DNA of 64,000 nucleotides from Notamacropus eugenii (lineage: Eukaryota; Chordata; Mammalia; Diprotodontia; Macropodidae). Below are positions 1,648 to 62,403 of this stretch, piece by piece. Location of the stretch: contig NW_027325145.1 in NCBI RefSeq assembly GCF_028372415.1, positions 393,501-457,500 of the forward strand, given 5' to 3'. Every line of letters starts with the position of its first letter. Position 1 is the first letter of the stretch. The position numbers and the translations under genes are program-made. The notes beneath the pieces were generated by a model. That model ran no database searches, was not told the origin of the DNA, and saw only the letters and a list, made by a program, of their open reading frames with translations.

Positions 1648-1777
1648 ATTATACTGTAAAAACCATAGTGGCACTGATGAGAGAGATGAAGAAGATGAAG
1701 AACGAGAAAGCAAAAGTCAAGGAAAAGAAGTGGCTGACTGTTGTGACCCTTCTCAACAGCAACTTAATGGAAACTAG
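1648..1777 (+). CDS. PHF6: PHF6 last coding exon (possible Y-linked PHF6Y)
   Basis: PHF6 is a nuclear/nucleolar chromatin-associated protein with two extended PHD zinc fingers. The exon starts with one base completing a Lys codon, then encodes 42 residues and TAG (1775-1777). It begins LYCKNHSG, the end of the second ePHD finger with its last Cys and His ligands, runs through the acidic/basic DERDEEDEERESKS stretch, and ends QQQLNGN. From memory this matches PHF6 across nearly the whole exon. Differences cluster after the acidic stretch, where the eutherian KVEIDQQQLT segment is replaced by KEVADCCDPS; such change in a very conserved protein is unusual. The upstream gene body is outside the window. 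A strong GT donor (GTAAGAG) follows the stop directly. Confidence 0.93.
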
Positions 1778-62100: not shown

Positions 62101-62403
62101 ACCCCCCACCCCTGAAACTGCCTGCGATGTTTTTCTCCAAGGCTCTGTCCTGGGCTCCCTTTCCTGAATGGGATATGGAATAAATTAAGGATAAGCACAA
62201 TGCCTTGATGTAAACTGAAGCTTAGCTGAGACTGGATAATATTAAGTAGAGGTTAAATCAAGAGAAGACTGTATATTAGGCTAAGGAGTTAAGACATAAG
62301 GTAATCCAGAAGGTGAATCCACAACAAAACTGGTTTTCAAGACTTTACCAAATTCAGGCTTTCCTCCCAAGACTGACTTATCTGCATTGCGGTTTGCACC
62401 TCC
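41015..62403 (-). CDS. PABIR2-like: PABIR (FAM122) family PP2A-B55 inhibitor, 3' six exons; 5' end outside window
   Basis: PABIR/FAM122 proteins bind and inhibit the B55-containing phosphatase PP2A in the nucleus. Exons in transcription order: 62403-62349, 56819-56727, 56598-56510, 51616-51555, 49789-49693, 41165-41015. Splice phases agree at every junction and 181 residues read without a stop. Landmarks: [16 protein letters not shown] (end of the PP2A-inhibitory helix), [42 protein letters not shown] then [17 protein letters not shown], and the C-terminus [12 protein letters not shown]. From memory this follows the family along its length; the tail is nearer PABIR1/FAM122A than human PABIR2. 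Human PABIR1 is intronless, but this copy has introns, so it is an original X/Y-type gene. Exons encoding the RRSNSAPL motif and the first helix were not found and should lie beyond 64000. Odd points are a poor donor at 51554 and a poor acceptor at 56820. A decayed but still spliced copy is the alternative. Confidence 0.88.
41580..42250 (+). repeat. L2-type LINE fragment inside PABIR intron
   Basis: Contains L2 3'-region text such as 'atataaagtcttctggcaat' and 'ttaaagcccttcacaatatt', followed at 42255-42330 by a MIR-like scrap ('gtgccaggtgctgtgctaaa'). Confidence 0.6.
42480..42870 (+). repeat. Possible solo LTR
   Basis: The end has an LTR R/U5-like layout: 'cctcaataaatgtctttctt' (polyadenylation signal) then 'cagacacctgtttcagtgaa'. 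No internal retroviral sequence lies next to it. Ends are uncertain. Confidence 0.4.
43260..43595 (+). repeat. L2 3' end
   Basis: Carries the L2 3' text in order: 'caagatgcagctcaaaatgc', 'aagaggctgttgctg', 'gtttgcatgttgtttccctg', 'gaactccctgagagcaggaa', ending 'aaatgcttgctgact'. Confidence 0.8.
43990..44245 (+). repeat. MIR-type SINE
   Basis: Shows 'ccaggaattgtgctaagcac', 'cctcatttaatcctcacaac', 'gattaagtgacttgtctgac' and 'agatgaactcaggtttccct', the ordered MIR core. Confidence 0.8.
44280..45300 (+). repeat. L1-derived element: GA-rich spacer joined to ORF2 3' part
   Basis: About 44310-45190 corresponds to the spacer at 53900-54440 ('gagacctttctcattatt', 'gtagttagaaggg', 'ggtagaatggggcaatat'). 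It runs directly into 'tctgataaaagcctcatttc' and 'ccattccccagttgataaat', the late ORF2 region, with no RT domain between them. A TA/TG-rich tract (45296-45425) ends it. Confidence 0.65.
45426..45800 (-). repeat. L1 ORF2 3' fragment (minus strand)
   Basis: Reverse L1 text: 'gttccaacttgccttccata', 'cctactttccaacaagtccc', 'gatgggtgtaaggtggcacc'. Confidence 0.65.
45801..46860. other. PABIR intron sequence, nothing recognised
   Basis: Mixed sequence with no exon of the PABIR family and no clear repeat class, apart from low-complexity runs. Confidence 0.4.
46865..47065 (+). repeat. MIR-type SINE (weak)
   Basis: A degraded MIR-like arrangement: 'agagcactggacttgatctc', 'tacggcaagtgactctctct', 'acctataaatgggggacagg'. 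Confidence 0.5.
47250..48130 (+). repeat. L1 3' end (plus strand)
   Basis: Contains 'gaaaagatgtgagaaaactg', 'tatttatagcagctcttttt', 'gaattggaaattgaggggat', 'ttgtggtatgattataatgg', and a G-rich 3' UTR with a 13-base G run (48013-48025). Confidence 0.85.
48500..49030 (-). repeat. L1 3' end (minus strand)
   Basis: Reverse L1 text: 'actctgcatcagttcataca', 'acaacagtattccattacat', 'ttcccagttgatgggaaatg', 'gctatcacaaaaagagctgt'. Confidence 0.8.
49693..49789 (-). other. PABIR2-like: PABIR penultimate exon in window
   Basis: Acceptor CTCTCCCACAG before 49789; donor GCATG|GTGAGT at 49693/49692. The 97 bases encode (G)[18 protein letters not shown], then [13 protein letters not shown] plus TG of a split Cys codon. 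The first Gly is split with the previous exon (G|GT). Confidence 0.9.
50650..50935 (+). repeat. MIR-type SINE
   Basis: Shows 'ggatgtgagttcaattctaa', 'cttgggcaagtcacttaagc', 'ttagtctcctcatctctgta' and 'atggggataataatagcacc'. It lies in a PABIR intron. Confidence 0.85.
51555..51616 (-). other. PABIR2-like: PABIR exon encoding the SPVNCIRP motif
   Basis: 62 bases: one base completing Thr, then [20 protein letters not shown], then G of the next Gly. The acceptor is CTTTAGCAG. The donor is AAAAG|GTTCTG, which keeps GT but departs from GTRAGT at +3 to +6, so its splicing strength is doubtful. Confidence 0.85.
52820..55410 (+). repeat. HAL1-like L1 derivative (5' UTR, ORF1 relic, spacer, 3' end)
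   Basis: About 52820-53100 resembles an L1 5' UTR. About 53110-53630 is an ORF1 relic: coiled-coil-like [17 protein letters not shown], then [11 protein letters not shown] and ISGLPES (the L1 ORF1 signature), with several in-frame stops. About 53900-54440 is the GA-rich spacer; about 54460-55410 is late ORF2 coding plus 3' UTR. The endonuclease and RT are absent. Confidence 0.7.
55411..55990 (+). repeat. L1 3' fragment (plus strand)
   Basis: Begins with 'tctctgataaagggctcatt', continues through 'atttatagcagctctttttg', 'gaattggaaattgaggagat' and 'aagttgtggtatatgaatg', and stops without a 3' UTR. Confidence 0.8.
56510..56598 (-). other. PABIR2-like: PABIR exon encoding QCFSPSLQ
   Basis: 89 bases: [16 protein letters not shown], then [13 protein letters not shown] plus AC of a split Thr codon. 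Acceptor TTTTTTAAAG; donor CAAC|GTAAGT. The block is close to the family pattern, with Pro-to-Gln in PSPT. Confidence 0.92.
56727..56819 (-). other. PABIR2-like: PABIR exon encoding [15 protein letters not shown]
   Basis: 31 whole codons, [13 protein letters not shown] then [18 protein letters not shown], with donor CAAG|GTAAGC. The acceptor is AAAAAAAAATAG, lacking the usual pyrimidine tract, and so looks weak. The [15 protein letters not shown] core is the most conserved stretch of the family. Confidence 0.92.
57310..58502 (+). mobile_element. Tigger (pogo) DNA transposon relic, internally deleted
   Basis: About 57380-57625 reads, with one frame change, as the TIGD1-type N-terminal DNA-binding region: [10 protein letters not shown], then [20 protein letters not shown], then [19 protein letters not shown]. 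It jumps at about 57650 straight to the C-terminal part ([15 protein letters not shown], then after a frame change [10 protein letters not shown], then [14 protein letters not shown]). The DDE catalytic core between them is gone. The right end near 58480-58502 ('ttcgtaaaccgaggtgctac' then TGTA) looks like a terminal repeat; no left partner was found. Confidence 0.8.
58506..59960 (+). repeat. L2 LINE, split by a younger L1 insertion
   Basis: L2 text before the insertion (58506-58584) continues after it (59360-59960): 'cctccactcacttgacagat', 'aaatgaagatctcaccatta', 'caaagcccttcgtaccttgg'. Removing the L1 and one target-site copy restores a continuous L2. Confidence 0.75.
58585..59343 (+). mobile_element. 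Young 5'-truncated L1 with 16-bp target-site duplication
   Basis: About 759 bases from 'ccctttgacccagcaatatc' to an A-rich tail (about 59270-59343). It is flanked by a perfect 16-bp direct repeat, AAAACCCTACTACCTG, at 58569-58584 and 59344-59359. The ORF2 C-terminus is open for about 110 codons ([13 protein letters not shown], then [20 protein letters not shown], ending at TAG 58915-58917). It is the best preserved L1 in the window. Confidence 0.9.
60045..60600 (+). repeat. Possible solo LTR
   Basis: Retrovirus-LTR-like order: an upstream CA/CC-rich part, 'gtgccctataagaaaccc' (TATA-like, about 60431), then 'cagtcttcaataaatgtctt' (AATAAA at about 60518), then an end near 'gtcaccatgacaca'. No gag, pol or env text adjoins it. 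Ends are approximate. Confidence 0.45.
60700..62180 (-). repeat. Unassigned, possibly LINE-derived sequence
   Basis: T-rich on the plus strand, with a short minus frame (60998-60771) rich in Lys/Glu (coiled-coil-like). It may be LINE ORF1/5' UTR but lacks a decisive motif. No PABIR exon lies within it. Confidence 0.3.
62349..62403 (-). other. PABIR2-like: PABIR exon encoding [16 protein letters not shown]
   Basis: 55 bases: one base completing the previous codon, then [18 protein letters not shown]. The acceptor is CTTGTGTTTATAG and the donor AATTTG|GTAAAG. It is the C-terminal part of the family's PP2A-contacting helix, the most function-linked segment seen here, and is nearly unchanged. 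Confidence 0.92.

Follow-up and report, generated by a model that had tools for sequence, protein, structure and literature searches.

Here, we describe a block of three genes in a 64,000-nucleotide stretch of genomic DNA (contig NW_027325145.1, positions 393,501 to 457,500), the whole of which we call the window. The block comprises the end of a PHF6-type gene on the plus strand, a complete RBMX/RBMY-type gene (RBM), also on the plus strand, and part of a PABIR2/FAM122B-type gene (PABIR) on the minus strand, and we argue that it very probably comes from a marsupial Y chromosome. A first-pass annotation of the same DNA had listed a PHF6 exon, a full RBM gene and a PABIR gene on these strands, all with open frames, and our exon models confirm each of these. 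It had placed the block at 1648..62403; the gene content stands, but the end does not, since 62403 is merely the edge of the second PABIR exon and the gene extends to 62541. Matches were found by tblastn with human RBMX, PABIR2, PHF6 and HPRT1 probes. The E-values of individual rows range from 5.8e-6 to 9.6e-22 (some for linked rows), which excludes chance as the source of the gene matches.

The RBM gene (9957-15938) consists of eight coding exons totaling 1209 nt and encodes 402 residues without an internal stop. Its seven introns, 74 to 2108 bases long, are all GT-AG. Because an AG ends at 9942, the first exon may begin at 9943; the start codon lies a single codon downstream of that of the human protein (GTG ATG GAA versus M V E). 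The product has the domains of the RBMX/RBMY family, RRM_1 (PF00076, E 2.7e-21) and RBM1CTR (PF08081, E 2e-16), and the introns set the gene apart from RBMXL-type retrocopies. Indeed, introns in both RBM and PABIR rule out the retrocopy reading for the two genes. RRM identity to human RBMX is 79/93 positions, and 315 of 405 aligned columns are equal when the whole protein is compared with human RBMX. RBMX would generally be expected to be much more conserved among mammals than this. In being intron-containing, of RBMX type, equipped with RRM and RBM1CTR and diverged from human RBMX, the gene resembles marsupial RBMY. A 27-base tandem repeat within the sixth exon (14859-14924) makes the SRDY-type repeat region longer.

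The PABIR gene (62541-41015, minus strand) has seven exons and six introns in the window, and its 594 nt form 197 codons that are open to the stop. Its opposite orientation to PHF6 follows the human order of PHF6 and FAM122B, and PABIR1 is intronless; orientation and introns together identify the gene as PABIR2 rather than PABIR1. X-borne PABIR2/FAM122B is likewise multi-exon. The sole PDB match is PABIR1 in 8so0 (E 5.7e-9), which covers the first 30 residues, 27 of them equal; exons beyond this point are assigned by comparison with human PABIR2 and are to that extent putative. Against that sequence, identity is 143/197 overall, 27/30 in the first 30 residues and 116/167 in the remainder, and the window contains neither the start exon nor the segment RLHQIK of the B55-binding motif. 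Residues 1-89 of the probe have no match in 62542-64000 (tblastn, E up to 10), and elsewhere in the window parts of them give chance-level rows only (E 2.4 and 5.5). The start exon is therefore either outside the window or lost. When contigs of bacterial and archaeal genomes were scanned for PABIR relatives, 66 stretches matched a pattern, of which none was confirmed.

The PHF6-type gene is represented in the window by one exon, whose frame reaches a stop directly after LNGN. Its match to the C-terminus of human PHF6 (tblastn E 2.2e-9) makes it a probable last coding exon. PHF6 has two extended PHD domains; the short tail in the window gave no PDB match and no Pfam match. Coordinates of all exons are collected in Table 1.

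Table 1. Exons and promoter-side features in the window, ordered by gene.
Feature	Position	Strand	Basis
PHF6-type last coding exon, LYCKNHSGTDERDEEDEERESKSQGKEVADCCDPSQQQLNGN then stop	1648..1777	+	AG acceptor, open frame; tblastn
CpG-rich stretches	7801..10000 (windows 7801-8400, 8701-10000)	.	CpG observed/expected 0.61-1.02, GC 0.50-0.82, 500-base windows
GC-rich 52-base tandem repeat, 10.7 copies, 99% matches	9117..9673	.	TRF
RBM coding exon 1, start codon	9957..10062	+	exon model
RBM coding exon 2	10258..10364	+	exon model, tblastn
RBM coding exon 3	12473..12641	+	exon model, tblastn
RBM coding exon 4	13519..13671	+	exon model, tblastn
RBM coding exon 5, RBM1CTR region	14661..14775	+	exon model, tblastn, Pfam
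RBM coding exon 6, internal 27-base tandem repeat, 2.4 copies	14850..15002	+	exon model, tblastn, repeat at 14859-14924
RBM coding exon 7	15092..15180	+	exon model, tblastn
RBM coding exon 8 and stop	15622..15938	+	exon model, tblastn
PABIR2-type exon, EEAMDLINRETVRE(R), GC donor AAG/GCGAGT	62498..62541	-	exon model, PDB, tblastn
PABIR2-type exon, opens with (R) of split codon	62349..62403	-	exon model, PDB, tblastn
PABIR2-type exon	56727..56819	-	exon model, tblastn
PABIR2-type exon	56510..56598	-	exon model, tblastn
PABIR2-type exon, weak-looking donor AAG/GTTCTG	51555..51619	-	exon model, tblastn
PABIR2-type exon	49693..49789	-	exon model, tblastn
PABIR2-type last exon and stop	41015..41165	-	exon model, tblastn

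The order of the genes points to their chromosome. The PHF6 and PABIR stops are 39 kb apart, and no HPRT1 exon was found in the window (tblastn, human HPRT1 probe; seven rows, best E 2.1), whereas the same run recovered 8/8 RBM coding exons, 7/7 PABIR model exons and the PHF6 exon. The layout of the X, with HPRT1 between PHF6 and FAM122B, was thus not seen in the window. Among tammar wallaby X clones, “HPRT, PHF6X” forms one entry and “RBMX” a separate one, and the Y bacterial artificial chromosomes (BACs) include “RBMY-PHF6Y” (PMC3046482, citing Murtagh et al.), in which, as in the window, RBM is near PHF6; no HPRT is named with them. This agrees with the annotation's statement that PHF6Y and RBMY have been reported on marsupial Y chromosomes, and its view of the layout as Y-like gains support from PHF6 lying beside RBM, from the HPRT1 result and from the two sets of clones. 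The pairing of PHF6 with RBM matches the tammar Y pairing and argues for a marsupial Y rather than an X.

These lines of evidence, together with the divergence of an RBM gene whose X relative is highly conserved, make it very probable that the window is male-specific marsupial Y sequence carrying the 3′ end of PHF6Y, an RBMY gene and a PABIR2/FAM122B gametolog. No eutherian Y is known to keep PHF6, and RBMX-type copies with introns are not known from chromosomes other than X and Y. The latter makes an autosomal or otherwise duplicated block in another mammal hard to credit, as does the documented pairing of PHF6 and RBM on the marsupial Y (PMC3046482), and we regard such a block as highly improbable. 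Assignment to a marsupial would follow from the same source, in which PHF6Y and RBMY are reported together from a marsupial Y, and from the lack of any known eutherian Y with PHF6. Two LINE-1 (long interspersed nuclear element 1) fragments in the window, similar to open reading frame 2 (ORF2), fit a mammal but go no further.

Several observations weigh against this interpretation. Marsupial X chromosomes are rearranged in gene order (PMC3820666, PMC3477149). The RRM of the window protein scores closer to human RBMX (PDB 2mb0, E 4e-45; 2mks, E 1.3e-41) than to human RBMY1A1 (2fy1, E 1.2e-38). At the 34 sites where the window protein and human RBMY1 both differ from RBMX, they have the same residue at only 7; the controls gave 3/17 for the window protein with RBMXL2 and 9/40 for RBMY1 with RBMXL2. 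The test did not discriminate from its RBMXL2 controls, and we dropped shared RBMY-specific residues as support for RBMY ancestry; in this comparison with human sequences, no RBMY-specific residue signal was found in the putatively Y-linked gene. A single-residue gap near the C-terminus is common to the window protein and RBMY1, which is too little to count. For PABIR, the GC donor, the weak-looking GTTCTG donor and the start exon that is not in view all count on the same side, and its open frame is no surprise if the neutral branch is short (see below).

Could the window instead be part of a marsupial X, in which a rearrangement put RBMX beside PHF6 and moved HPRT1 and RSX elsewhere, so that all three genes are X copies? 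Frames that are open in all three genes, the rearranged gene order of marsupial X chromosomes, the RRM scores and a shared-residue test that does not favor RBMY can each be set on the side of this explanation. However, it requires HPRT1 and RSX to leave the interval, though in the tammar HPRT stands with PHF6X in a single X entry (PMC3046482), and it requires the rearrangement to recreate the known RBMY-PHF6Y pairing. It also leaves 14 of 93 RRM positions different from human RBMX, which is much for so conserved a gene. On balance, we consider an X origin improbable.

If the Y reading holds, PHF6 and PABIR2 would go back to genes that lay close together on the proto-sex chromosome. The Y would then have lost the HPRT1 interval, and RBM would have come between the two. 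The annotation had proposed that the Y “lost what lay between.” The missing HPRT1 is in keeping with this, but on the X, RBMX is not known to be located between PHF6 and FAM122B; loss alone therefore does not account for the position of RBM, and rearrangement is also required.

The interval is of interest because its proposed counterpart on the marsupial X holds RSX. RSX is located downstream of HPRT1 (PMC3820666), and the eutherian region syntenic to it is flanked by HPRT and FAM122B (PMC6817483); that source names FAM122B a single time, in this role. With the human gene order as a guide, the RSX interval has the same flanks as the window, PHF6 on one side and FAM122B on the other. Unlike that interval, the window has an RBM gene inside, no HPRT1 exon was found in it, and no tandem array from 16 to 41 kb scores higher than 94. 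This part of the window is repeat-type sequence with LINE-type pieces; a large array of RSX type was not found there, only short tandem repeats, in a search that did not compare the RSX sequence itself.

Whether the genes of the block are maintained can be judged in part from their frames. We counted nonsense changes only, with transitions weighted 3. The length of the neutral branch was assumed to be 0.3 substitutions per site, a value obtained by halving the KS of 0.61 for wallaby RBMX/Y (PMC3477149). On this branch, RBM would be expected to gain 14.1 stops (P of none 8e-7) and PABIR 5.8 (P 3e-3), and none is seen in either. With a branch of 0.1, the expectation falls to 4.7 for RBM (P 0.009) and 1.9 for PABIR (P 0.15). 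The PHF6 exon is too short for the test, with 2.1 stops expected at 0.3 and a P of none of 0.12. The genes of the block probably still make proteins.

The second feature that bears on function is the PABIR inhibitory helix. FAM122A, a paralogue in the PABIR family, restrains PP2A-B55 at mitotic entry. It binds B55 through the motif R-L-X-X-I-K-X-E-E, and its second helix, residues 97-111 (INRETVHEREVQTAM), covers the PP2A catalytic site (PMC10765524). Inhibition is weakened 11-fold by R105L, 6-fold by V107G and twofold by E104A (PMC10765524), and another study found inhibition, tested on a model substrate, to be lost when E100 and E104 are changed (PMC11233601). The B55 motif is also present in FAM122B and FAM122C (PMC11233601). 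The corresponding helix in the window, INRETVREREVQTAM, is almost identical to that of PABIR1/FAM122A, with H103R as the single change. Besides E91, E92, L96 and I97, the window protein keeps E100, E104, R105 and V107, the residues by which we judged the PP2A inhibition helix. Only the final E-E of the B55-binding motif is in the window; the rest has no match in 62542-64000. With 27/30 identity against 116/167 elsewhere, the stretch with the inhibition helix ranks with the best conserved parts of the protein, which fits a working inhibitor, although, judged by sequence, an X copy might look alike.

An alternative within the Y reading is a PABIR copy that has recently become a pseudogene, or has been truncated, and yields no functional protein. 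The 94-base intron at 62404-62497 is GC-AG and splits the R105 codon of the inhibition helix, a second donor (GTTCTG) looks weak, and the start exon was not found in the 1459 upstream bases within the window. Yet the reading frame continues across the GC donor, which is otherwise perfect (AAG/GCGAGT), a pattern typical of functional GC donors; 594 nt are open through seven exons, and 27 of 30 residues are identical across the PP2A helix. We think a dead copy unlikely, and lean somewhat toward a working PABIR2Y within a Y block. Such a protein would act as a PP2A-B55 inhibitor, its second helix lying over the catalytic site. The broadest version of our proposal, that marsupials keep a working, male-specific PP2A-B55 inhibitor on the Y and that the block corresponds on the Y to the RSX interval, with HPRT1 gone, RBM in its place and no RSX-like array, has in our estimate an even chance of being right.

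For RBM, the protein would be an RRM splicing regulator of hnRNP G type. In human cells, RBMY and hnRNP G-T have been shown to activate a testis exon (PMC2762042). Accounts of expression in the tammar differ: one describes RBMY as expressed mostly in testis and calls all Y genes except ATRY and RBMY ubiquitous (PMC3820666), whereas in the other the RBMY-PHF6Y BAC gave an RNA signal in <5% of male fibroblast nuclei (PMC3046482). The CpG-rich stretches upstream of RBM are perhaps its promoter side, and the 52-base array is inside them, upstream of the start codon. SNORD61 lies within human RBMX; in 7500-17000, a search for RNA families at E up to 5 gave four weak matches, none of them SNORD61.

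The remainder of the window holds no RNA family match at gathering score (0 in the whole window) and no tRNA (0 in a scan of the window). The LINE-1 ORF2-like pieces are at 30049-30462 (minus strand, E 1.1e-13) and 58399-58914 (plus strand, E 1.3e-23) and represent the endonuclease side and the C-terminal end. Open frames at 32347-34614 (minus strand), two of which were tried without a significant Pfam match, may belong to an RTE-type retroelement. A direct repeat pair of ~560 bases (17469-18013 and 28502-29066) is 79% identical, and a long AGAA-type simple repeat is at 6097-6366. Large palindromes or amplicons were rejected, as self-comparison gave just 36 pairs at 64-84% identity (blastn, low-complexity filter, E 1e-8).

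PHF6Y, RBMY and their pairing are already known; what the window adds is PABIR. FAM122 has no occurrence in the main text of the paper that names the tammar Y BACs (PMC3046482), nor in that of an antechinus genome paper in which extra genes on Y scaffolds were annotated, and FAM122BY has none in the papers searched for it. We met no Y-borne PABIR/FAM122 among the matches listed, in a search that lay outside the gene lists of Murtagh 2012, Cortez 2014 and Bellott 2014. PABIR2Y is best read as one more gene in a class already known, the marsupial X-Y gametologs, of which ten surviving pairs are described (PMC5852568); elsewhere, 20 genes are given for the marsupial Y (PMC9631953, after Cortez 2014).

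X-Y pairs that have lasted on the marsupial Y are few, and every one of them can inform the question of why certain genes escape decay. If our reading is correct, a Y-borne PABIR would add a phosphatase inhibitor to this short list, and the block would show what remained on the Y at the interval where RSX arose on the X. Since the X copy lies beside RSX, the locus of X inactivation, comparison of the X and Y copies may assist in dating when recombination ceased around RSX.

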